The notes under the pieces: model-generated
What the model saw: only the letters and a program-made list of their open reading frames with translations
Databases searched by the model: none
What the model was told of the DNA's origin: nothing
Translations under genes and position numbers: made by a program
NCBI RefSeq assembly: GCF_023566055.1
Contig: NZ_JALIQP010000001.1
Span: forward strand, 1,200,059-1,264,058
Source: Halosolutus amylolyticus
Lineage (GTDB): Archaea; Halobacteriota; Halobacteria; Halobacteriales; Natrialbaceae
Length of the DNA stretch: 64,000 nt
Reading direction: 5' to 3'
In this document: positions 1,486 to 11,738 of the stretch, in pieces
Numbering within the stretch: the first letter of the stretch is position 1
Layout of the letters: the number at the start of each line of letters is the position of its first letter

Positions 1486-3018
1486 ATGGACGCTGGCACT
1501 GCGGAGTTCGACTTCCTCGTCGTCGGTTCGGGGTCCGGGCTCGACGTCGCGAACGCGGCTGCGAACCGCGGGCAGTCCGTCGCGGTCGTCGAGAAGGGGC
1601 CGCTCGGCGGCACCTGTCTCAACCGGGGCTGTATCCCCTCGAAGAAACTGCTGTACCACGCGGAGGTGATGGAGACCGTCGATCGAGCCGACGAGTTCGG
1701 CATCCACGTCGACGTGACCGACGTCGACTTCGCCGACATCGTTCGCGAGGTGAACGAGGACGTCTCCGGGAGCGCCGAGTCGATCCACCACGGGTTGCGC
1801 ACGTCGAACCGCCACACGCTGTTCGAGGGCCAGGCCGAGTTCGCCGACGATCGGACGATAGAGATCACGTCCGGTCTCGACGCGGGCAAGCGCGCCCGGG
1901 CCGACACCGTCCTCGTGGCCGCGGGGACGCGGCCGGCGATCCCGCCGATCGACGGCATCGAGTCCGTCGACTACCTCACCAGCCGGGAGGCGCTCCAGCT
2001 CGAGACACCGCCGGACCACCTCGTGATCGTCGGCGGCGGCTACATCGCGGCCGAACTGGCGCACTTCTTCGGAACGTTCGGCAGCGACGTGACGATCGTG
2101 GGCCGGCGTCGATCGTTCCTCCCGGAGGCCGACGACGAGGTCGCCGCCGCGTTCACCGAGCGATACGCCGATCGGTTCGCGATCCACACGGGGTACGAGG
2201 CCGTCGCAGCCGCGGAGTCGGGCGGCGAGGTAACCGTCGAGGCGCGCCCGTACCCACCCGCGTGGGACGATGCGGACGAGCGTGACGGCGTGACGGTGAC
2301 CGGCGACACCCTCTTAGTCGCGGCCGGCCGGCGGCCCAACTCGGACACGCTGAACCTGGCGGCGACGGGCGTCGAAACCGACGCGAACGGGTTCGTCGAG
2401 ACCGACGAGTACCTCCGGACGTCCGCCGACGGGATCTGGGCGCTCGGGGACATCGTCGGCGAGTACCTGCTGAAGCACAACGCGAACCACGAGGCCCGGG
2501 CCGTCGTCCGGAACCTGTTCGGCGACGACCCCGTGCCGGTCGACTACACCGCGATGCCCTTCGCCGTGTTCGCCTCCCCGGAGGTCGCCGGCGTCGGCGC
2601 CCGGGAGCAGGATCTCCGCGAGGCCGATCGCGCGTACGCCACGCGCACCTACCGCTACGAGGACACCGCCCGCGGGAATGCGATGAAGGTCGAGGGACTC
2701 GTCAAGGTGCTCGCCGAACCGGACGGCGAGATCCTCGGCTGTCACATCGTCGGGCCGGAGGCGTCGAACCTGATCGAGGAGGTCGTCGTCGCGATGAAGG
2801 CGGGCACGGGAACCGTCTGGGACATCCGCGAGTCGGTCCACATCCATCCCGCCCTCTCGGAGGTGGTCGATCGGGCCTTCGCCGGCCAGTTCACCCGCCG
2901 CGGCGACGGGCACGACCACCACGATCACGACCACAGCGACCACGACCACCACAACCACGGACACGACGGTCGCGGGCATAACGAGCACGACGAACACAGC
3001 CACGACGATCGCGAGTGA
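1486..3018 (+). CDS. MerA/Lpd-like FAD-dependent disulfide oxidoreductase with His-rich tail
   Basis: 510 aa. A Rossmann FAD motif (DFLVVGSGSG) is followed by the redox pair C44-x4-C49 (GGTCLNRGC), a second nucleotide motif (VIVGGGYIAAE), and the interface motif HIHPALSEVV. This is the layout of mercuric reductase, dihydrolipoyl dehydrogenase and glutathione-type reductases. The ATG at 1486 was chosen because it falls just before the FAD fold. No N-terminal heavy-metal-binding domain and no MerA C-terminal Cys pair is visible. Instead the last 40 or so residues are packed with His and Asp, suggesting metal binding. In haloarchaea this family includes the gamma-glutamylcysteine disulfide reductase, so that is an alternative substrate. 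The MerT-like small gene follows closely. Confidence 0.8.
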   Translation: MDAGTAEFDFLVVGSGSGLDVANAAANRGQSVAVVEKGPLGGTCLNRGCIPSKKLLYHAEVMETVDRADEFGIHVDVTDVDFADIVREVNEDVSGSAESIHHGLRTSNRHTLFEGQAEFADDRTIEITSGLDAGKRARADTVLVAAGTRPAIPPIDGIESVDYLTSREALQLETPPDHLVIVGGGYIAAELAHFFGTFGSDVTIVGRRRSFLPEADDEVAAAFTERYADRFAIHTGYEAVAAAESGGEVTVEARPYPPAWDDADERDGVTVTGDTLLVAAGRRPNSDTLNLAATGVETDANGFVETDEYLRTSADGIWALGDIVGEYLLKHNANHEARAVVRNLFGDDPVPVDYTAMPFAVFASPEVAGVGAREQDLREADRAYATRTYRYEDTARGNAMKVEGLVKVLAEPDGEILGCHIVGPEASNLIEEVVVAMKAGTGTVWDIRESVHIHPALSEVVDRAFAGQFTRRGDGHDHHDHDHSDHDHHNHGHDGRGHNEHDEHSHDDRE

Positions 3019-3105: not shown

Positions 3106-3330
3106 ATGGATTCGGAGACGGCCTCTCGGCGATCGAAACTCGGTCTCGCGGGGCTGGCGAGCCTCTGTTGTGTCGGCCCCGGCACGGCCGCCGTCACGGG
3201 CGGCCTTACCGTCGGCGGACTGGGTGGCGGTCTCGCTCCGGTGGCGGTGACCGCCCTGGTGCTCGCCGTCGGTGCGATCGTCGTTCGCCGTCGGACCGGC
3301 TGTTCGACGTGCGAGTCCGGCGAATCGTAA
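3106..3330 (+). CDS. Small MerT-like two-segment membrane protein
   Basis: 74 aa. The first membrane segment contains LASLCCVGP, very like the Cys-Cys-x-x-Pro segment of MerT-type mercury transporters. A Gly-rich second hydrophobic segment follows, and the tail has C-S-T-C. It lies 87 bases after the MerA-like reductase on the same strand. MerT has three segments and is longer, so this would be a minimal relative. Transport or metal sequestration at the membrane is inferred from the Cys pairs and the neighbour. Confidence 0.6.
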   Translation: MDSETASRRSKLGLAGLASLCCVGPGTAAVTGGLTVGGLGGGLAPVAVTALVLAVGAIVVRRRTGCSTCESGES

Positions 3331-3334
3331 CTCC

Positions 3335-3601
3335 TCACTGGGTCAACGAGACGAGAACGAGTACCATCCCGCTCGAGACGACCGCAGCCTGGATGAGCCC
3401 CGCGGACAGGATCGACGTGCCGAAGACGACGTAGATGAGGCCTTCACAGATCGCCCCGGCACCGATGAACACGAACCCCGCCGAGACGTACAGCATCGGT
3501 TTGCGTCCGTTCCGTCGGTAGCCGTGAAAGGCCAGGTACGCGATGGCGAGGCTCAACGTGAGCGTGATCAGTTTCGCGAGAACGAACGGCGCCTCGATCA
3601 T
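3335..3601 (-). CDS. DUF7521-type small membrane protein
   Basis: 88 aa with three hydrophobic segments (from about residue 7, about 36 and about 62) and a short cytoplasmic RRNGRK loop. It matches the haloarchaeal DUF7521 type, which often sits beside HTH regulators. The ATG at 3601 overlaps the stop codon of the upstream regulator gene by four bases (ATGA), so the two are co-translated. Its function is unknown. It could be a membrane-bound sensor or partner for the regulator. It converges closely with the MerT-like gene. Confidence 0.7.
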   Translation of the reverse strand: MIEAPFVLAKLITLTLSLAIAYLAFHGYRRNGRKPMLYVSAGFVFIGAGAICEGLIYVVFGTSILSAGLIQAAVVSSGMVLVLVSLTQ

Positions 3602-3957
3602 CGCTCTCCTCGGATGTCGTCCCACAGCGACGTAAAGTTGTCCGCCAGTTCGTCGCGCGTCTCCATGGCCAGCGTCAGTTCGCCCTCGGAGAGGTCGAGG
3701 TGGAGTCCCTCGAGCACCGTCTCGAACTCGCTCCGGTGGGAGCCGTCCGGCCCGATCGATCGCCGTTCTTCGACGAGGTCGTGTTCCTGGAGCATCGAGA
3801 CGCGACGGTACACCGTCGCGAGGGAGGCGTCGCACGCATCGCTGAGATCCTTCGCGGTCATCGGCTCCCGGTCCGCCGCGACGAGAATCCGTCGCGCGTA
3901 GTCGTCGGCCAGCACCTGAAAGACCTCCGACGGGTTCGAGGTTCCCTCGCGTTGCAC
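3598..3957 (-). CDS. ArsR-like winged-helix transcriptional regulator
   Basis: 119 aa from a GTG at 3957. The core (SEVFQVLADDYARRIL, then AKDLSDACDASLATVYRRV as recognition helix, then a basic wing) is the haloarchaeal ArsR-like winged helix. An ATG at 4074 is in frame, but using it would place the 27-base palindrome at 3991-4017 inside the gene and overlap the divergent carbamoyltransferase start, so I prefer the GTG. It overlaps the DUF7521 gene by four bases. Lying next to the palindrome shared with two other divergent promoters, it is the best candidate regulator of that set (inference). Confidence 0.75.
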   Translation of the reverse strand: MQREGTSNPSEVFQVLADDYARRILVAADREPMTAKDLSDACDASLATVYRRVSMLQEHDLVEERRSIGPDGSHRSEFETVLEGLHLDLSEGELTLAMETRDELADNFTSLWDDIRGER

Positions 3958-3990
3958 GGGGACGACGACGACGTAATCGAACAAATAGGC

Positions 3991-4017
3991 GGCGATTTGC
4001 TGGGCCAGCAAATCGCC
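3991..4017. promoter_or_regulatory. 27-base palindrome P1 (shared operator), regulator/carbamoyltransferase
   Basis: Two perfect 13-base arms surround one central base. The core is CGATTTGCTG (3993-4002), GGC, CAGCAAATCG (4006-4015). It lies 35 bases from the regulator GTG and 57 from the carbamoyltransferase ATG, so it can act on both divergent genes. The same core recurs at 8234-8256 and 10928-10952. Confidence 0.75.
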
Positions 4018-4072
4018 ACTGTCATTTTGGGTGTCCCCGAAGTCAGTCACCAACGCGTTACTCTCACGAGAC

Positions 4073-5842
4073 ATGACCGACTATCTACTCGCATTTAAAC
4101 CCGCGATCGGGCTGTACGGCCAACACGATCCGAGCGCCGTGCTCTTCGAGGACGGCACGCCCGTCTTCGGCGTCGAGGAGGAGCGATACACGCGGGAGAA
4201 ACACGCGACGGAGACCTTCCCCGAGCGGGCGATCCGGGCCTGTCTCGACCACCGGGACCTGACCCTCTCGGACGTCGATCGCGTCCTGTTGCCCTACGAC
4301 CCGCAACTGCGCGGGAACCTCACCGCACACTATCTCACCGACGCGGTTCGAGCCCCCGGCCTCGCGCGAAAACTCTCCGCGCTGGAGGGGACCGTCGTCA
4401 CGGAAGCCCGCAGCCGGTTCGTCCCGACGCGCCAGATCGAGAACCGCCTCGCGTCGATCGGCACGCCGGTGCCGCCGATCGAGACGATCTCCCACCACCG
4501 CTGTCACGCGGCGAGCGCGTTCCACCCTTCCGGATTCGAGGAGGGGGTCGTTCTCACGGTCGACGCGAAAGGCGAGTACGACTCGACGGTCGTCTGGTAC
4601 GCCGACGAGGACGGACTGACACGCACACACACGTACGAACACCCCAACAGCCTCGGGCTCTTCTTCGCGATCGTCACGGAGTACCTCGGCTACCGGATGT
4701 TCAACGGCGAGGGGAAGGTGATGGGCCTGGCCCCCTACGGCGAGGACAACTCCGAGATCGAGGGCGTCCTGCGGGACCTGATCGACACCGGAGCGGACTA
4801 CGACGTCACCGAACTGACGAAGCGCTGGGGGACCGGCCACGGCGTCGAGTTGCTCGAGGACGCGTTCGGCCGCCCCCGCAACGAGACGCCCGGCGAGTTC
4901 GACCAGTGGGAAAAGGACCTGGCCCACACGGCCCAGAAGCTCCTGGAGGAGACGGTCGTCGCCATCGCGGAGTCGGCCGTCGAGCAACTGGGAACCGCGA
5001 ACGTTGCGCTCGCGGGCGGGGTGGCGCTCAACTGCAAGCTGAACCAGCGCGTTCGCGAATCGCCGGCCGTCGACGACGTCTTCGTCCAGCCAGTCGCCCA
5101 CGACGCGGGGCTCGCGCTCGGGGCGGGCTGGTCGCGACAGCGCCCCGCCGACGTCGATCGCCAGACCACCGTCTACCTCGGCCCCGAGTACGAGACCGAC
5201 GAGATCCGATCGACCCTCGAGACGAACAAACTCGCGTACGCGGAACCGGACGACGTAGCGCGCTACGTCGCCAAACGGCTCGCGGACGGCGACCTCGTCG
5301 GCTGGTTCCAGGGCCGCATGGAGATGGGGCCGCGCGCGCTCGGCGCGCGAAGCATCCTCGCCGATCCCCGCACCGCGGCGTCGCGCGATCGGGTCAACCG
5401 GTTCGTCAAACACCGCGAGGAGTGGCGTCCGTTCGCCCCGTCGATGCTCGAGTCGGCCGCCGCCGAGTACCTCGTCGACGGCGAACCGGCACCGTTCATG
5501 ATCGACGCGTTCGACGTCGATCCGGCGAAGACCGGGAACCTCGAGGCCGTCCTGCACCCGGCCGACGACTCGACGCGACCCCAGACCGTCCGCGAGGACC
5601 AGCACCCGCGCTACCACCGACTCATCTCCGAGTTCGCCGAGATCACCGGCGTCCCGGTCGTCCTCAACACCTCGTTCAACGACCACGCCGAACCGATCGT
5701 CCGGACGCCGACCCAGGCGATCAAGGACTTCTACGGCATGGGGCTCGACGTCCTCGTCCTCGAGGACCTCGTCCTCGAGAAGGACGCCCATGCCGTCGAG
5801 AAGGACGCCCGCGTCGTCGAGACGGACGCCCGTCCCGGGTGA
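4073..5842 (+). CDS. NodU/CmcH-family carbamoyltransferase
   Basis: 589 aa. The N-terminal half is a Kae1/ASKHA-like fold with metal-binding His residues in SHHRCHAASAF and the glycine-rich ALAGGVALNCKLNQ. The C-terminal half is the YrdC-like part, with WFQGRMEMGPRALGARSI and VLNTSFNDH. These enzymes move a carbamoyl group from carbamoyl phosphate, through a carbamoyl-adenylate, to a hydroxyl on a sugar, antibiotic or other small molecule. The substrate here is unknown: no glycosyltransferase or biosynthetic cluster is adjacent. The ATG at 4073 begins directly with the family start. The end has three degenerate EKDAxxVE repeats not typical of the family. Palindrome P1 lies upstream. Confidence 0.85.
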   Translation: MTDYLLAFKPAIGLYGQHDPSAVLFEDGTPVFGVEEERYTREKHATETFPERAIRACLDHRDLTLSDVDRVLLPYDPQLRGNLTAHYLTDAVRAPGLARKLSALEGTVVTEARSRFVPTRQIENRLASIGTPVPPIETISHHRCHAASAFHPSGFEEGVVLTVDAKGEYDSTVVWYADEDGLTRTHTYEHPNSLGLFFAIVTEYLGYRMFNGEGKVMGLAPYGEDNSEIEGVLRDLIDTGADYDVTELTKRWGTGHGVELLEDAFGRPRNETPGEFDQWEKDLAHTAQKLLEETVVAIAESAVEQLGTANVALAGGVALNCKLNQRVRESPAVDDVFVQPVAHDAGLALGAGWSRQRPADVDRQTTVYLGPEYETDEIRSTLETNKLAYAEPDDVARYVAKRLADGDLVGWFQGRMEMGPRALGARSILADPRTAASRDRVNRFVKHREEWRPFAPSMLESAAAEYLVDGEPAPFMIDAFDVDPAKTGNLEAVLHPADDSTRPQTVREDQHPRYHRLISEFAEITGVPVVLNTSFNDHAEPIVRTPTQAIKDFYGMGLDVLVLEDLVLEKDAHAVEKDARVVETDARPG

Positions 5843-5944
5843 TCGACGCGGCGTCCCGACCCGGTCGCGTCGCTCGCGCGCCGAGACCGCCCGATCGTAT
5901 CAGTATTGCACTGAAAGAACACTATTCGTTACGCACTCTCACCC

Positions 5945-6316
5945 TTACTGCGCCGCGTGCGTCTCGAGCAGGTCCACGAGCGTCTCCGCGCCCTGGAAGC
6001 CGTCGTCGAGGCGGGCGACCTCCTCGCCCTCTTTCAGGACGACGAGCGTCGGGACGCTCCGGACGTCGAACTCGCCGGCGAGATCCGGGACGAGACCGGC
6101 GTTTACCGTCGCCACGACGCCCGGCGCGCTTCGGGCGACGGTGCCGAGCACCGGTTCCATCGACGCGCAGATGCCACACCCCGACGTGACGAACTCGAGC
6201 AGTACGAGGTCGTGCTCCGCGAGCAGGTCGTCGTAGTCGGCGGCATCGTCTAGCTGGACGGGCTTCTGTGTCGTCTGTCCGTCGTCGATCGATCCCGAGC
6301 GTGCTGTGTCGGTCAT
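5945..6316 (-). CDS. Thioredoxin-fold protein with CGIC active site
   Basis: 123 aa. A thioredoxin fold carries C47-G-I-C50 after EFVTSG, and the cis-Pro is in VRSVPTLVV. There is no signal peptide, so it is cytoplasmic. The Trp that normally precedes the active site is replaced by Ser-Gly. The ATG at 6316 leaves a roughly 20-residue acidic N-terminal extension. It converges with the carbamoyltransferase and is divergent from the DUF2270 gene. A short inverted repeat lies 34 bases upstream of its start. Confidence 0.85.
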   Translation of the reverse strand: MTDTARSGSIDDGQTTQKPVQLDDAADYDDLLAEHDLVLLEFVTSGCGICASMEPVLGTVARSAPGVVATVNAGLVPDLAGEFDVRSVPTLVVLKEGEEVARLDDGFQGAETLVDLLETHAAQ

Positions 6317-6349
6317 TACCGGAGTAACGCGCCAGGAGCATTTGAATGT

Positions 6350-6366
6350 TTGCACAATCTGTGCAA
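6350..6366. promoter_or_regulatory. Inverted repeat TTGCACA-N3-TGTGCAA upstream of the thioredoxin gene
   Basis: Perfect seven-base arms with a three-base spacer lie in the divergent gap between the thioredoxin (start 6316) and DUF2270 (start 6456), 33 bases from the thioredoxin ATG. The position fits an operator overlapping the promoter. The binding protein is unknown. Confidence 0.45.
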
Positions 6367-6455
6367 TAACGGTGGCCGATCGGTCCCGTCCTCGCGCTGA
6401 CGGGTGTCGACGACCGGGCCGAGATTCTTCGTCTCGGCCGTCGAAGACCGGAGAC

Positions 6456-7211
6456 ATGACCGACCGCGCCGACGACGAGTCCGCGCAGGCCGATCCAGGA
6501 CGCGAGGTAGGCCACGACGAACCGGAACTGCCGTCGGTACTCGGCCACGCGTACCGCGGCGAACTCGATCGCGAGACGACCTGGCGGTCGAGACTCGATC
6601 AGACGACGACCTGGGCCGTAACGCTGATGGCCGCGATCCTCACGTGGGCGTTCTCGAGTACCGACAATCCACACTATATCGTCCTCGTCGGCGTCCTGAC
6701 TGTCGGGACGTTCCTCGTGATCGAGGCGCGACGGTACCGCGACTACGACGTCTACCGCTCTCGCGTGCGACTGTTCCAGCAGAACTTCCTCGCACCCACG
6801 CTCGATCCGGCCCGGAGCGTCGAACACGGGAACTGGCGGACCGAACTCGGGGACGACTACCGGCGACCGACCCTGAAGATCACGATGTTCGAGGCGATCG
6901 CGAATCGCTTGCGACGTATCTACTTCGCGCTCCTGACCGTGCTGTGTATCGCGTGGCTCTTTCGCGTCACCGCGTTCGCACGGGACGCGGGATTTCCTGC
7001 CACCGCCTCCGTTGGGGCCGTTCCCGGGATCGCCGTCGTGACCGTCGTCGGCGCGTTCTACGCCGCAATTCTCGCGAGCGCGAGGCCAAGGGGGAGTTCC
7101 ACGACACCGAGGCCGGCGACTGGAAGGAATCCGAGTGATCCCGGCCCGATCGCGCCGCACCCGGGCGATCACGCGGCGCAGGTCGGACACGATCGCCGGT
7201 GGCGCACGTAG
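6456..7211 (+). CDS. DUF2270 membrane protein, probably frameshifted near its 3' end
   Basis: 251 aa in the uninterrupted frame, from the ATG at 6456. An acidic N-terminus precedes two membrane segments (about residues 50-85), an Arg-rich cytoplasmic region (EARRYRDYDVYRSRVRLFQQ), then two more segments, the DUF2270 pattern. After about base 7080 this frame becomes Arg/Pro-rich and overlaps the convergent gene by 43 bases. The other rightward frame there reads REREAKGEFHDTEAGDWKES and stops at 7138, which looks like the authentic acidic tail. One base has probably been lost or gained near 7080. Function unknown. Confidence 0.7.
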   Translation: MTDRADDESAQADPGREVGHDEPELPSVLGHAYRGELDRETTWRSRLDQTTTWAVTLMAAILTWAFSSTDNPHYIVLVGVLTVGTFLVIEARRYRDYDVYRSRVRLFQQNFLAPTLDPARSVEHGNWRTELGDDYRRPTLKITMFEAIANRLRRIYFALLTVLCIAWLFRVTAFARDAGFPATASVGAVPGIAVVTVVGAFYAAILASARPRGSSTTPRPATGRNPSDPGPIAPHPGDHAAQVGHDRRWRT

Positions 7212-7648
7212 ATCAGCCCCGCCAGGATCGCGACGGAGACCGCGCCGAGAAGCGGCCGGAGCGGATCGAAGTACGTCATGAGCGCCGACGAACTGAACAG
7301 CGCGAGCAGGAAGACGTTACAGATCGGACAGCCGACCGCGAGGAATCCGCCGACCAGCCCGCCCAGTAGCAATCGATCCTCGCCGTCCGACTCGCCCCCG
7401 CTTTGGGGTTCGGGTTCGGCCACCTCGGTCGTCAGTCGCTGGGCCGTATAGACGCCCGCGAGCAGTGCCGTCAGCGTCAGGAACAGGTAGTCGGTCGGCG
7501 TCCGGGGCACCATCCGGACGTAGAGCGGGTTCGGGACGAGCCCGGTGACGAGTCCGAACAGCACGAACACGCCGACCGCGGCGGCCGCTCCCCACGCGAT
7601 CGCCCGCGGATCCGGGCCGATCGAGCGGACGAACTCGCTTCCCGTCAT
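7169..7648 (-). CDS. Membrane protein with Cys-Pro-Ile-Cys segment (redox or metal membrane pair, second gene)
   Basis: 159 aa with about four membrane segments. One contains VGCPICNVFLLALFSSSALM, and the C-terminus ends in RRSCPTCAA, so two C-P-x-C pairs are present. The ATG at 7648 overlaps the stop of the upstream membrane gene (ATGA). Cys pairs at a membrane face suggest thiol exchange, heme or metal handling, but I cannot name the family with confidence. It is the distal gene of an operon whose promoter carries palindrome P2. Confidence 0.7.
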   Translation of the reverse strand: MTGSEFVRSIGPDPRAIAWGAAAAVGVFVLFGLVTGLVPNPLYVRMVPRTPTDYLFLTLTALLAGVYTAQRLTTEVAEPEPQSGGESDGEDRLLLGGLVGGFLAVGCPICNVFLLALFSSSALMTYFDPLRPLLGAVSVAILAGLIYVRHRRSCPTCAA

Positions 7649-8193
7649 TCCGTCGCCTCCGGTGCGATCGCACAGCGTTCGGGGTGGCCCGCACGCCCCA
7701 GGAAGAACAGCAGGAGGGCGAGTCCGGCGATGCGAAGGAGCGCGCCGTCGTACGGGAGCGCGGCCAGCCCCCCGGCGAACCCGAGGAAGCCGAGGAGGCC
7801 GGCACCACAGCTCGCACAGCCGGACGCGAGGAGGCCAGGGACGACTCCCGACAGATCGGTCAGTCCCGTCGGGCCGACGAGTCGCAGTTGCGCGACGGCG
7901 TTGACGACCGCGACGCCGGTGAGGACGGCGTAGAGGACGATAATACCGAGCGACGAGAGCCCGTCGGTCCGGTAGATCGTCTCCGTCAGCGAGACGAGGA
8001 CGTAGTCGAACCAGTGGAGGCCGTCGCCGAGCATCTGGAGCGAGAACTCCGGCATCGTGCTGAGCACGAGGAGGACGTACGTGGCGAGCGTGACGGCCAC
8101 CAGCCCGATCGTCCCGCGCCAGGTCTCGAAGGGATACGAGACCGCCGCGGAGAGGTTCCGCAGGTAGCCCGAGATCGAGTCGCGAGAGCGCAT
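7645..8193 (-). CDS. Membrane protein with GCASC segment (redox or metal membrane pair, first gene)
   Basis: 182 aa with about five hydrophobic segments. The fourth begins at SGCASCGAGLLGFLGFAGG, placing a Cys-x-x-Cys at the membrane boundary, and one more Cys follows the last segment (GHPERC). It overlaps the next gene by four bases, giving a two-gene operon of paired Cys-motif membrane proteins. Start ATG at 8193, 40 bases from palindrome P2. The function is not known. The resemblance to membrane thiol-exchange proteins rests on the motif and on the DsbA-like protein of the same putative regulon. Confidence 0.7.
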   Translation of the reverse strand: MRSRDSISGYLRNLSAAVSYPFETWRGTIGLVAVTLATYVLLVLSTMPEFSLQMLGDGLHWFDYVLVSLTETIYRTDGLSSLGIIVLYAVLTGVAVVNAVAQLRLVGPTGLTDLSGVVPGLLASGCASCGAGLLGFLGFAGGLAALPYDGALLRIAGLALLLFFLGRAGHPERCAIAPEATE

Positions 8194-8233
8194 CTGCGTT
8201 CACTGACGGGCCGCCAGGTGAAAGGTCCGACTC

Positions 8234-8256
8234 CGATTTGCTGGGTCAGCAAATCG
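8234..8256. promoter_or_regulatory. Palindrome P2 (shared operator)
   Basis: CGATTTGCTG, spacer GGT, CAGCAAATCG: perfect ten-base arms. It sits between the Cys-motif membrane operon (start 8193, 40 bases away) and the Tat lipoprotein (start 8310, 53 bases away), nearly the same geometry as P1. Confidence 0.75.
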
Positions 8257-8309
8257 CGACGGCGTTTACCCACAGTATAGTGAACGTACTGGGAAGGCCT
8301 CCCCCGATA

Positions 8310-10211
8310 ATGGCAGACGAACGCGACGCGGACGACGACTCGTCTCGACGCCGACTGCTGGCCGCACTCGGCGCGGCATCGACGACGCTCGCGGGCTGTA
8401 CCGACGTGCTATCGGACGAGACGGGTGATGGGACTCCCGACGACGCGACGACCGGGGGAGGATCCGGAACCGGATCGAGCGACGGTGACGCGCGCTGGCC
8501 CGCGATCGAGGCGGGCGAGGTGCTCTCCGACTTCGAAACGCTCGAGGAGTGGACCGCGCGGACCGGCGAGCTATCGGCCGCGCCCGACGAGGCGCTGACC
8601 GGTTCGCAGGCGGCGGTCGTCGAGAGCGACGAGGGCACGGCCGGCATGGAGATCCGGTTCCCCGACGGGATCGACCTCCGGGACTGGGACACGTCGGTGG
8701 CGGTCAAGCCCGAGGCCGCCGATCGGGTCATCGTCGAATTCCTCGCGCCGACGCGGAGCGATCGGCTCTCGAGCATACGCGTGGTTCCGGACGAGTACGA
8801 CGGCTGGTTCCGGATGGACTGTGGCTACCAGCAGAAGCCGGGGAACGACCCGGATCTCTCGACCGTCACCGGCATCAACATCGTCGCGGACGGGCCCGAC
8901 GGCGGGCCGACGGGACTGCTGGTCGACGACCTCCGGCGCACCGAATCGGCCGACAACGGCGCGGCGATCCTCGCGTTCTACGGCGGGCACGATTCGCACT
9001 ACGACATCGCGGCGAAGATGCTCGCGGAACGCGGCTGGGCCGCGGCGGTGCCGGTCAGCCCCGATCGGATCGGCGCGGACGGCCGACTGGGGACGGACGA
9101 GTTGCGGGACCTCAGCGACCGCGGCTGGGACGTCTGTTCGCTCCCGCAGGTGTCGACACCCCTGCCCGATCAGCCCGCGGAGCGACAGCGGGAGGTCCTC
9201 GAAACCGCGCGGGACGCGCTCGCGAACCAGGGCTTCGAGGACGGCTCGCGACACCTGTTCGTGCCGGACGATCGGCTGGACGCGACGACCTACGACGTCG
9301 CCAGGGACGTCCACGAGTCGGTGTTCCTGTCGAGTGCCGGGACGACGGGCGTGCCGCCGACCGAGACGCACATGATCCCGTTCATCTGGGGACCGGCGCT
9401 TCACACCGGCGTTCGTCGCCACCTCAACATCTCCGACCAGTACGACCTGCTCACCGTGATCCGGATTCCGCGGATCGTCGACGCGGCGGACGTCGGCGTC
9501 GACGAGAACCGGATGTCGCTCGACGACTTCGGACTCCTCCTCGATCACATCGAGCATCGCGGTCTCGACGTCGTCACCCCTTCGGACCTCGTCGACGGGA
9601 CCCTGGACCTCGACGGCGACGAACCTGCGGTCGGGGACCGGCCGACCGGCACCGTTCTCGAGGCGGGCCAGTCCCACGTGTTCGAGGGAACCGGGTCGGG
9701 CGAGTCGCCGACGTTCGACCTCGACGAGGGGGTCCTCGTCGCGACCGTCTCCCGGGACGGCACGTCGGAACTCGCGGTCGACGTGACGAAACCCGGCGGC
9801 ATCGGCCGGAACGAGAACCTGCTGACCACCGCGAATTCGGCCGGGACGTCGATCATGGCCGTCGACGACGACACCTATCGGCTCGAGGTCGCGGCCGACG
9901 GCGCGTGGTCGATCGACCTCTCCCAGCCAGCGGTCCACGCCGACGACCTCGACGACCTCCCGTTCGAGGCCAGCGGGTCGGGATCGTCGTTCGCCGGGCC
10001 GCTGTGGACGGACGGCGACGTCAGGGTCGTGGCGACCCACGACGGCGACGGGACGTTCGTCGTCGACGGCTACGGCGCGGACGGCAGTCGAGAGATCCTC
10101 GTCCACCGGACCGGCGCGTTCGACAACTCCCGATCGTACAGGGCGGGCGGCCCGGTCTGGCTCAACGTCGAGGCCGACGGCGACTGGACGCTCCGCGTCA
10201 CCCACGTGTAG
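8310..10211 (+). CDS. Tat lipoprotein with polysaccharide-deacetylase-like domain
   Basis: 633 aa. The N-terminus SSRRRLLAALGAASTTLAGC is a twin-arginine signal with lipobox, so the protein is exported folded and lipid-anchored. An acidic Gly/Ser/Thr linker follows. Residues about 65-205 look like a beta-sandwich module, and about 210-440 resemble a NodB-type (beta/alpha) barrel (ILAFYGGHDSHYDIAAKMLAERGW, then an end motif around RGLDVVTPSDLV). The usual NodB catalytic Asp-Asp and His-x3-His set is not obvious, so activity is doubtful. The last 190 or so residues are beta-rich. An upstream in-frame TTG at 8238 lies inside P2, so I use the ATG at 8310. Confidence 0.72.
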   Translation: MADERDADDDSSRRRLLAALGAASTTLAGCTDVLSDETGDGTPDDATTGGGSGTGSSDGDARWPAIEAGEVLSDFETLEEWTARTGELSAAPDEALTGSQAAVVESDEGTAGMEIRFPDGIDLRDWDTSVAVKPEAADRVIVEFLAPTRSDRLSSIRVVPDEYDGWFRMDCGYQQKPGNDPDLSTVTGINIVADGPDGGPTGLLVDDLRRTESADNGAAILAFYGGHDSHYDIAAKMLAERGWAAAVPVSPDRIGADGRLGTDELRDLSDRGWDVCSLPQVSTPLPDQPAERQREVLETARDALANQGFEDGSRHLFVPDDRLDATTYDVARDVHESVFLSSAGTTGVPPTETHMIPFIWGPALHTGVRRHLNISDQYDLLTVIRIPRIVDAADVGVDENRMSLDDFGLLLDHIEHRGLDVVTPSDLVDGTLDLDGDEPAVGDRPTGTVLEAGQSHVFEGTGSGESPTFDLDEGVLVATVSRDGTSELAVDVTKPGGIGRNENLLTTANSAGTSIMAVDDDTYRLEVAADGAWSIDLSQPAVHADDLDDLPFEASGSGSSFAGPLWTDGDVRVVATHDGDGTFVVDGYGADGSREILVHRTGAFDNSRSYRAGGPVWLNVEADGDWTLRVTHV

Positions 10212-10271
10212 CGACGGACGATACCGGCGTCGATCGCGACTCACTCGTGGGCTGCGTCGAGTTCGGCGCTC

Positions 10272-10838
10272 TCAGGGACAGTCGCTCTCGTCGACCGATC
10301 GGGGTTCCGATCCCTGGTCGACTGCCCGCGTCGCGCCCGTCTCGAGGGCCACCAGCATCGCCCGACCGCCGTACTCGTGGGTCTGGTCGTGACCGCGAAC
10401 GACGACGCACGTCACGTCGTCGGGGATGTCGACGGTCTCCGATCGGGTGAACGGCTGGTCGGAGTGGGCGTGGAGGAGGTCGCGCCGACCGAGTCGCGTC
10501 CCGTCGAGGCGCTCGACCTGCCACCAGTTCGCGTAGCCGTCCTCGCCGTCGTCGTCGTGGTGGAGCGTCACGTCGAACGCGTACGCGCCGTCCTCGGCGT
10601 CGAATTCGACCCCGACGACGTTCGCCTCCCGGAGGTCGAGGTCGTCTGCCCCCTGCTCGGTGCCGTCGGACTCGGATCCGTCGCCCGAATCCGGGCCGTC
10701 GTTCTCGTCGGTACCGTTGTCCTCGTCGATCGATCCCGAGTCGTCGCTCCGGTCGCTGCAACCGGCCAGTGTGGCGATCGCGAGCGCACTCGCAGTGCTC
10801 CCGAGCAACCGGCGTCGGGCGAAGCCAGGTCCGGACAT
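10272..10838 (-). CDS. Small Tat lipoprotein, function unknown
   Basis: 188 aa from the ATG at 10838. FARRRLLGSTASALAIATLAGC is a twin-arginine signal with lipobox, and a very acidic linker (residues about 28-65) follows. The remaining domain is beta-rich, with HHDDDGEDGYANWWQVE and RGHDQTHEYGGRAML. Several His residues could bind metal, but I do not recognise the fold. It is divergent from the DsbA-like gene, with two copies of the shared palindrome between them. An in-frame ATG at 10895 lies within site P3 and was rejected as start. Confidence 0.7.
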   Translation of the reverse strand: MSGPGFARRRLLGSTASALAIATLAGCSDRSDDSGSIDEDNGTDENDGPDSGDGSESDGTEQGADDLDLREANVVGVEFDAEDGAYAFDVTLHHDDDGEDGYANWWQVERLDGTRLGRRDLLHAHSDQPFTRSETVDIPDDVTCVVVRGHDQTHEYGGRAMLVALETGATRAVDQGSEPRSVDESDCP

Positions 10839-10876
10839 GCGTCTTCGATCGGCCCCCGGGACTAAATCGTCCCCGG

Positions 10877-10899
10877 CGATTTGCCGGGTCAGCAACTGC
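10877..10899. promoter_or_regulatory. Degenerate palindrome P3
   Basis: CGATTTGCCG, spacer GGT, CAGCAACTGC: a weaker version of the shared palindrome, best in its left half. It lies 38 bases from the lipoprotein ATG at 10838, matching the position of P1 and P2 relative to leftward genes. P4 follows 28 bases later. Confidence 0.55.
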
Positions 10900-10927
10900 C
10901 GCCCGCCAGTGTGAGTCGCTTTGGGGA

Positions 10928-10952
10928 CCGATTTGCTGAGCCAGCAAATCGG
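10928..10952. promoter_or_regulatory. Palindrome P4 (shared operator)
   Basis: Perfect eleven-base arms CCGATTTGCTG and CAGCAAATCGG with spacer AGC. It lies 48 bases before the ATG of the DsbA-like gene. P3 and P4 are centred about 52 bases apart, roughly five helical turns. Confidence 0.75.
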
Positions 10953-11000
10953 CGATTCCGTTACGGTCCAGTGGCGTGAACGTCACCGCGAGCACAACTG

Positions 11001-11738
11001 ATGTCCTTCGACGAGCCTTCCCGTCGCGCCTTCCTCGCCGGGTCAGTCGTGGCGGTCGGCGCCGGCGGTGCGTACTATCTCACGCGATCCGACGAGTCTC
11101 ACGACGACGAGTCTCACGGCCTGTCGCCGGAGTTTCACGCGAGCGACGAGACGTCGACTCTCGGCGTCGAACTGGCCGGCAAACCGATCATGGGATCGCC
11201 GGAAGCCCCGATCGACCTCTACTACTGGACGGACTTCCAGTGTCCGTTCTGCGCGCAGTTCGAACGGGAGACGCTCCCCGACCTCGTCCGGGAGTACGTC
11301 GACCCGGGGCGGATTCGGGTCGTCTTCGTCACGGTTCCGTTCTTCGGCGGGGACTCGATGACCGCCGCGGTCGCCAGCAGGTGCGTGTGGGAGCAGGTTC
11401 AGGAGACCGAGCGCTCGGCGTACTGGAACTGGCACGCGGCGGTCTTCGACGAACAGGGCGAGAAGAACTCGGGCTGGGCCGCAGCCGACAACCTCGTCGA
11501 GTACACGCGATCGGTCTCCGGCGTCGACGCCGACGCGCTCGCGACCTGTCTCGACGAGCGTCGGTCGACGTACGAGGAGGAGATCGATGCGAACGCGGCG
11601 CAGGCCCGCTCGTTCGGCATCTCGGGAACGCCGGCGTTCCTCGCCTTCGACCCCGAGACCGAGGCGGGCGAGGCGCTCGCCGGCGCGCAACCGATCGATC
11701 GGTTCGAGGAGGCGATCGAGGCGGTCGAAGACGCGTGA
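11001..11738 (+). CDS. DsbA-like thiol:disulfide oxidoreductase, Tat-exported
   Basis: 245 aa. SRRAFLAGSVVAVGAGG at the N-terminus is a twin-arginine signal without a lipobox Cys, so the protein is probably secreted or anchored by its uncleaved signal. The thioredoxin fold with helical insertion has the active site C81-P-F-C84 (TDFQCPFCAQFE) and cis-Pro in GISGTPAF. It would form or shuffle disulfides in exported proteins. Two further Cys lie in the helical insert. A partner such as a DsbB/VKOR-type oxidase is not seen, but the Cys-motif membrane proteins at 7169-8193 share its promoter palindrome. Confidence 0.85.
   Translation: MSFDEPSRRAFLAGSVVAVGAGGAYYLTRSDESHDDESHGLSPEFHASDETSTLGVELAGKPIMGSPEAPIDLYYWTDFQCPFCAQFERETLPDLVREYVDPGRIRVVFVTVPFFGGDSMTAAVASRCVWEQVQETERSAYWNWHAAVFDEQGEKNSGWAAADNLVEYTRSVSGVDADALATCLDERRSTYEEEIDANAAQARSFGISGTPAFLAFDPETEAGEALAGAQPIDRFEEAIEAVEDA

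Follow-up and report, generated by a model that had tools for sequence, protein, structure and literature searches.

Which protein reads a palindrome that recurs in the divergent promoters of a haloarchaeal gene island, and what would that protein control? The question is raised by a stretch of 64,000 nucleotides from Halosolutus amylolyticus (contig NZ_JALIQP010000001.1, positions 1,200,059 to 1,264,058), called the window throughout, in which an original prediction had placed one palindrome at three divergent promoters and had proposed a regulon with its own regulator at 3598-3957. The analysis presented here suggests that the palindrome is probably the operator of this regulator, an ArsR-type winged-helix protein, which would govern an extracytoplasmic thiol regulon in the manner of an activator. 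The site, its positions, conservation and specificity, the residue-base covariation and the invariance of a cysteine were computed; direct binding, the direction of control, the signal and the flow of electrons are argued from these where they come up.

A Palindrome Confined to a Few Promoters

The window operator reads CGATTTGCTG-N3-CAGCAAATCG and spans 23 bases, 20 of them fixed. A direct scan bore out the three perfect copies at the predicted places, and the degenerate copy predicted at 10877-10899 is likewise present as sequence. With one further degenerate site outside the window, the copies are as follows:

3993-4015: operator 1, perfect palindrome, in the divergent gap between the helix-turn-helix (HTH) regulator gene and a carbamoyltransferase gene.
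8234-8256: operator 2, perfect palindrome, in the divergent gap between memA and the gene of a deacetylase-like lipoprotein.
10929-10951: operator 3, perfect palindrome, 49 bases ahead of the DsbA-like gene.
10877-10899: degenerate operator with 4 mismatches to the 20 fixed bases, 38 bases ahead of the start of a twin-arginine translocation (Tat) lipoprotein.
Contig 1, about 1198802-1198824 (L213:3803): degenerate operator left of the window, in the divergent gap between a SCO1/SenC lipoprotein gene (gap 38) and a metallo-beta-lactamase (MBL)-rhodanese gene (gap 61).

The whole genome of 4,594,540 bases holds three perfect copies, all within these divergent promoters, and 100 dinucleotide shuffles of the sequence yielded none; these two results rule out a chance origin of the palindrome. 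The genome-wide motif scan, set beforehand as a possible refutation, thus returned promoters only and no perfect copies at random coding positions. When the core GATTTGC-N7-GCAAATC was allowed up to 2 mismatches, just two extra sites appeared genome-wide, the one at 10877-10899, which has a half-eroded counterpart at the same place in a genome of the same genus (L177), and the one 1.26 kb left of the window. From operator to start codon the gap measures 35 bases for the HTH gene, 40 for memA, 49 for dsbA, 53 for the deacetylase-like lipoprotein and 57 for the carbamoyltransferase; with the 38 of the degenerate site, these values match the predicted distances of 35-40 bases to leftward and 48-57 bases to rightward starts.

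Conservation Among Relatives

Conservation of the site in related genomes, a check that had been asked for at the outset, was followed in 125 genomes of the same family, from which 79 homologous regions (loci) were fetched; a site was called at these loci where it lay upstream of a gene with at most 4 mismatches. The exact core is found in 36 of the 125 genomes, in 1-5 copies each and mostly within 2-12 kb, and a reversed-pattern control gave 0 matches in the same genomes. A wider contig scan, in which chance matches from unrelated bacteria were mixed in, was kept out of these statistics, as was a scan of viral sequences. At the family loci, sites stand upstream of the HTH gene in 47/60 orthologs (45 of these at gap 35), of memA in 44/55 (36 at gap 40), of dsbA in 48/48, of the deacetylase-like lipoprotein gene in 19/19 and of the carbamoyltransferase gene in 30/39. 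Conservation is therefore strong: dozens of genomes keep the site at fixed spacing before these genes. A more degenerate site lies at exactly gap 38 ahead of the SCO1/SenC lipoprotein in 13 loci, and an MBL-rhodanese gene opposite SCO1 across this site is seen in the Halosolutus genome of the window.

Neighbouring genes in the same islands are free of sites: MemB (0/53), DUF7521 (0/66), Trx (0/37), the TauE-type family c6 (0/29) and TrmB-type winged helix-turn-helix proteins (0/27). In the family-island scan no own site was found at the Lpd, CcdA, TlpA, DUF2270, DUF2243 and alpha/beta hydrolase genes either. Regulation of the whole island was rejected, since nearly all neighbouring genes lack a site of their own. 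One match at a TauE gene of family c9 (gap 9857) is an artefact of how a locus was sliced at its end, and two matches at the gene of the second Tat lipoprotein (gaps 90 and 104) are the perfect sites on the DsbA side and not its degenerate site.

The palindrome and the regulator also travel together. An HTH ortholog (at least 60% identity) is present in 57 of the 125 genomes, a MemA ortholog (at least 69%) in 52 and both in 51, and 33 of the 36 genomes with an exact site have the HTH ortholog. In one genome (G048) the HTH gene and a perfect carbamoyltransferase site lie apart, on contigs 1 and 2 respectively.

Several identical copies close to each other might also be expected of a mobile or structural repeat akin to a miniature inverted-repeat transposable element (MITE), which would be no operator at all. 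This explanation has next to no likelihood: within the promoter gaps the conserved positions are mainly the palindrome and the TATA region, the spacing to start codons is fixed, the palindrome is almost never found at other genes, and it varies in step with the regulator.

The Regulator and Its Match to the Operator

The putative reader is encoded beside operator 1, together with a small membrane protein:

3598-3957, minus strand: ArsR-type winged-helix regulator (HTH_20), with a GTG start, Cys42, a recognition helix at residues 46-58 and Ala at residue 47.
3335-3601, minus strand: DUF7521, small membrane protein with three hydrophobic segments, overlapping the HTH stop by 4 bases.

The regulator matches HTH_20 (PF12840) with 38.1 bits against a Pfam cut-off of 27, and its structural model (predicted local distance difference test, pLDDT, 83.5) has an ArsR-type winged-helix fold, for which the best structural chains are 2p4w (Z 12.5), 2oqg (Z 12.1) and CzrA (Z 11.9). 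In the model, residue 47 is the second of the recognition helix and Cys42 ends the preceding helix.

Residue 47 covaries with the fourth base of the half-site. Proteins with Pro at this position go with TTTTC-type half-sites, and those with Ala, Ser or Thr go with TTTGC. In a first set, made up of the few loci that gave the idea and 40 fetched later, Pro goes with T in 68/68 half-sites and Ala/Ser/Thr with G in 129/144; in a second set, picked by coordinates with the sequence unseen, T is found in 10/10 Pro genes that have a site. After dereplication the counts are 34/34 genes for Pro with T and 42/50 for Ala/Ser/Thr with G. The clearest pair sets DMSR-Ala-TVSRR with TTTGCTG against DMSR-Pro-TVSRR with GTTCTG. 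On the tree, residue 47 switches 4 times, 3 of them on well-supported branches, and the base is concordant in nearly all samplings of independent pairs.

The palindrome also follows the HTH-DUF7521 pair beyond the family. In nine loci (L200, L314, L318-L321, L324, L326 and L327), all but L200 outside the family, an HTH of 42-49% identity with DUF7521 has the palindrome upstream of the HTH gene and then a TATA box; none of the other window target genes is shared with these nine loci. Because residue 47 and base 4 covary and because the palindrome tracks HTH-DUF7521 into other families, the 3598-3957 protein is very probably the reader of the palindrome. A different transcription factor, for which HTH-DUF7521 would merely be one target, could account for five genomes (G029, G030, G048, G084 and G119) that keep sites although the HTH promoter has lost its own. 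Both the covariation and the company of palindrome and HTH-DUF7521 in families with no other shared target count against such a factor, which is very improbable. The proposal of a shared operator and a regulon with its own regulator at 3598-3957 thus gains support from the spacing, from the absence of sites elsewhere in the islands, from the covariation and from the tracking of HTH-DUF7521.

Paralogs of the regulator have sites of their own. The window genome itself encodes one (L354; contig 8, 142522-142848) of 46% identity, with Pro at 47, a TTCTCTCGGCCAGAAAA site and DUF7521 downstream. At L301-L304, a paralogous HTH (54%) is accompanied by a TTTTC-type operator and by a separate carbamoyltransferase, a second copy of the regulon with changed specificity.

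Promoter Layout and Direction of Control

Each perfect operator is followed by a TATA-like element:

3982-3987, minus strand: TATA-like TATTTG ahead of the HTH gene, 5 bases past operator 1; relatives that have lost the palindrome still keep it.
4024-4029, plus strand: T-rich TATA-like element of the carbamoyltransferase promoter.
8263-8269, plus strand: TATA-like CGTTTAC of the deacetylase-like lipoprotein promoter.
10958-10966, plus strand: TATA-like region (CCGTTACGG) of the dsbA promoter.

At the HTH promoter, CCTATTTG follows the palindrome by about 5 bases and precedes the start codon by about 30, a spacing that corresponds to the geometry of leaderless promoters in haloarchaea. HTH promoters of the L314 group have TTTATATA 7-9 bases past the palindrome, and the remaining target promoters have weaker T-rich elements 6-10 bases past it. 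The palindrome lies wholly upstream (5') of the TATA-like element, neither over nor past it.

Classical ArsR proteins are repressors that are released from DNA by metal or ligand binding or by modification. With the same operator and regulator, a dimer could thus block TFB/TBP and leave upon modification of Cys42 or binding of a metal or ligand. Such repression is in line with the ArsR-type fold, with the SmtB/CzrA-like proteins and redox repressors (SqrR, BigR, YodB and HypR) among the structural matches, with the palindrome at the regulator's own promoter and with the nearest NCBIfam models, which are the autorepressor SdpR and the ArsR/SmtB metalloregulators, both far below cut-off. It is nevertheless somewhat unlikely, given an operator entirely 5' of the TATA-like element and target core promoters that look weak. 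In the haloarchaeal regulator OxsR, motifs 5' of the B recognition element (BRE) and TATA were associated with activation, and motifs 3' of them with repression (PMC9426492). Because of the position of the site, the weak core promoters and this precedent, activation is favoured, and the regulator is likely an activator.

A Possible Signal and the Membrane Partner

Cys42 is conserved in 94/95 aligned HTHs, and its equivalent is present in 123/123 site-bearing HTHs. On a slight balance of likelihood, the signal would be oxidation, persulfidation or metallation of this residue, and a one-Cys thiol switch is plausible. Models of better-known sensors were not matched: the ArsR/SmtB metalloregulator model NF033788 scored 27.6 bits against a cut-off of 55, and the single invariant Cys comes with no multi-Cys/His metal site; the TrmB domain (PF01978) scored 18.1 bits against 25.6 and the SdpR model (NF033789) 29.1 against 100. 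Cys42 is the only conserved cysteine, and a sensor pair of cysteines of the SqrR/BigR type was not found.

DUF7521 (88 residues, with an RR-bearing loop among its hydrophobic segments) is the next gene after the HTH in nearly all palindrome loci and in deep paralogs. SdpI sequesters the autorepressor SdpR at the membrane (PMC1626106), and by analogy DUF7521 might couple the regulator to the membrane, sensing outside and releasing or sequestering the regulator. The near-universal adjacency with its 4-base overlap in the window, the hydrophobic segments with their RR-bearing loop and the rank of SdpR as the best NCBIfam match of the HTH agree with such a role, which is nonetheless doubtful: DUF7521 matched no SdpI family in Pfam or NCBIfam, and the SdpR match is sub-threshold. 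A bolder generalization, in which HTH-DUF7521 pairs are haloarchaea-wide membrane-coupled thiol regulators whose residue 47 sets operator base 4 and whose DUF7521 reports the state of the cell surface to a one-Cys regulator that is otherwise soluble, is speculative.

Probable Target Genes and the Character of the Regulon

Gene identities were checked against Pfam and NCBIfam, which confirmed the predicted ArsR-like regulator with DUF7521, the carbamoyltransferase and the DsbA-like protein. The probable target genes are:

4073-5842, plus strand: NodU/CmcH-type carbamoyltransferase, both domains complete (Pfam); regulon member.
7645-8193, minus strand: MemA, membrane protein with an invariant GCxxCG and a C-terminal Cys; regulon member.
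7169-7648, minus strand: MemB, membrane protein with an invariant CPxC and CxxC, overlapping memA (operon).
8310-10211, plus strand: Tat lipoprotein, deacetylase-like; regulon member.
10272-10838, minus strand: Tat lipoprotein with the degenerate operator, found in this genus only among the loci clustered.
11001-11738, plus strand: DsbA-like thioredoxin-fold oxidoreductase with a Tat signal; regulon member.

The two membrane proteins had been picked out by their Cys-x-x-Cys motifs, and these are invariant across homologs; the two lipoproteins are recognised, as predicted, by their signal sequences (RRxLL...AGC). The profile of 8310-10211 aligns with a prokaryotic polysaccharide deacetylase (chain 8qpg_TC) over positions 67-229 only, which is not a full-length assignment. 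The dsbA, memA and memB genes are grouped in many haloarchaeal families, often beside HTH-DUF7521.

The surrounding island carries SCO1, TlpA-like, multicopper oxidase, TauE and MBL-rhodanese genes, a content that fits a chemistry of thiols, sulfur or metals. The extracytoplasmic thiol character that had been proposed is supported by the grouping of dsbA, memA and memB, by the SCO1-led operon and by the MBL-rhodanese gene. If the regulon instead answered to copper or mercury stress, its CxxC proteins, SCO1, multicopper oxidase and MerT-like neighbours would handle metals and Cys42 would bind one. The degenerate SCO1/SenC site, the multicopper oxidases nearby, a weak match of two MemB family members to MerT and the MerT-like CC...CxxC protein at 3106-3330 all point that way. 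A metal regulon is still unlikely: the regulator has one invariant Cys and no ArsR-type metal site, the multicopper oxidase and MerT-like genes carry no operator in the family-island scan, and the genes with a proper operator are those of DsbA, the CxxC membrane proteins, the deacetylase-like lipoprotein and the carbamoyltransferase. Sulfane-sulfur sensing, prompted by the nearby MBL-rhodanese, TauE and YeeE-like genes, was rejected, as no clear operator stands there outside the genus of the window.

Three neighbours in the window deserve mention. The product of 1486-3018 (Lpd) is a disulfide reductase of the dihydrolipoyl dehydrogenase subfamily (NF004946) with a histidine-rich C-terminal tail and no operator; its nearest solved chain is mycothione reductase, and it is a candidate bis-gamma-glutamylcystine reductase. 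The MerT-like membrane protein at 3106-3330 has 74 residues with CC and CxxC, and no Pfam or NCBIfam match. The gene at 463-1152 encodes a nucleotidyltransferase whose N-terminal part resembles a winged helix (HVO_A0114 below cut-off).

A Proposed Circuit

Taken as an activator circuit, these elements suggest that a dimer of the regulator reads both CGATTTGCTG half-sites, with residue 47 setting the fourth base of TTTGCTG. A single bound dimer could serve two promoters, because the operator lies between divergent genes in three places. The regulator would control itself and DUF7521, memA-memB, dsbA, the deacetylase-like Tat lipoprotein and the carbamoyltransferase, the second Tat lipoprotein more weakly, and, left of the window, the SCO1-type lipoprotein and MBL-rhodanese. 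The output may be an extracytoplasmic thiol-disulfide relay in which MemA and MemB, the membrane proteins with CxxC, feed the DsbA-like protein.

Some observations weigh against this account. In seven HTH orthologs the promoter of the HTH gene itself has no operator, though the genome or island has sites elsewhere, and the 3-4 independent specificity switches are too few for a phylogenetic sign test (p 0.25). The Cys42 equivalent is also found in 54/60 paralogs without a recognised site, and Cys42 is therefore a family trait and no proof of sensing. A repressor, too, could act from a site immediately 5' of the TATA element. Finally, Pfam assigns no family to MemA or MemB with confidence (no DsbB, VKOR, DsbD or CcdA match), and the AlphaFold model of MemA (pLDDT 70.6) is too weak to assign a fold and has no PDB match.

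No paper on DUF7521 or the palindrome motif was found in a literature search made largely without subscription papers, and the circuit, with a one-Cys winged-helix regulator, a partner in the membrane and an operator code that can be read, appears to be undescribed in the literature searched. Sequence alone thereby links an archaeal regulator and its specificity residue to an operator and a set of probable targets, with a DNA-recognition code that is directly testable and a first functional handle on DUF7521. To our knowledge, little is known of haloarchaeal disulfide relays outside the cytoplasm, and the DsbA-like protein, MemA and MemB, to which the operator leads, suggest an extracytoplasmic thiol system that is as yet uncharacterised and is conserved among haloarchaea.

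Comparison With Known Systems

OxsR, the TrmB-type thiol regulator of Haloferax volcanii (PMC9426492), is likewise a small haloarchaeal winged-helix protein with a conserved Cys, and it shares the palindromic motif 5' of BRE/TATA (linked to activation in OxsR) and thiol-related targets. OxsR, however, is a TrmB protein, whereas the 3598-3957 regulator is of the HTH_20/ArsR type with its Cys at the end of the helix preceding the recognition helix. The OxsR motif is a CG-rich repeat and the window operator is TTTGCTG-N3-CAGCAAA; the window regulator also has a co-encoded DUF7521 and other targets. TrmB-type winged-helix proteins reminiscent of OxsR (DMECEGLLECIHGL) are encoded at L179:16702-17163 and in its homologs, with no palindrome; most of these islands have them next to genes for TauE and MBL-rhodanese.

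The ArsR/SmtB family, including the sulfide and redox sensors SqrR, BigR, YodB and HypR, shares the winged-helix fold (VIA-align Z about 10-12), an inverted-repeat operator and a site at the regulator's own gene. In contrast to the dithiol of SqrR/BigR and the metal site of SmtB, the window regulator has a single invariant Cys, and it differs from the family in its archaeal promoter position upstream of TATA and in its membrane partner. SdpR-SdpI of Bacillus subtilis similarly combines an ArsR-type regulator that has a site at its own promoter with a membrane protein encoded alongside it, but DUF7521 is no SdpI homolog by the searches run, the HTH falls far below the SdpR cut-off, and SdpR-SdpI concerns toxin immunity whereas the window regulon comprises thiol proteins. 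Dsb/CcdA relays also link a DsbA-like protein to membrane proteins with CxxC in hydrophobic segments, and MemA and MemB differ from them in matching none of the corresponding Pfam families.

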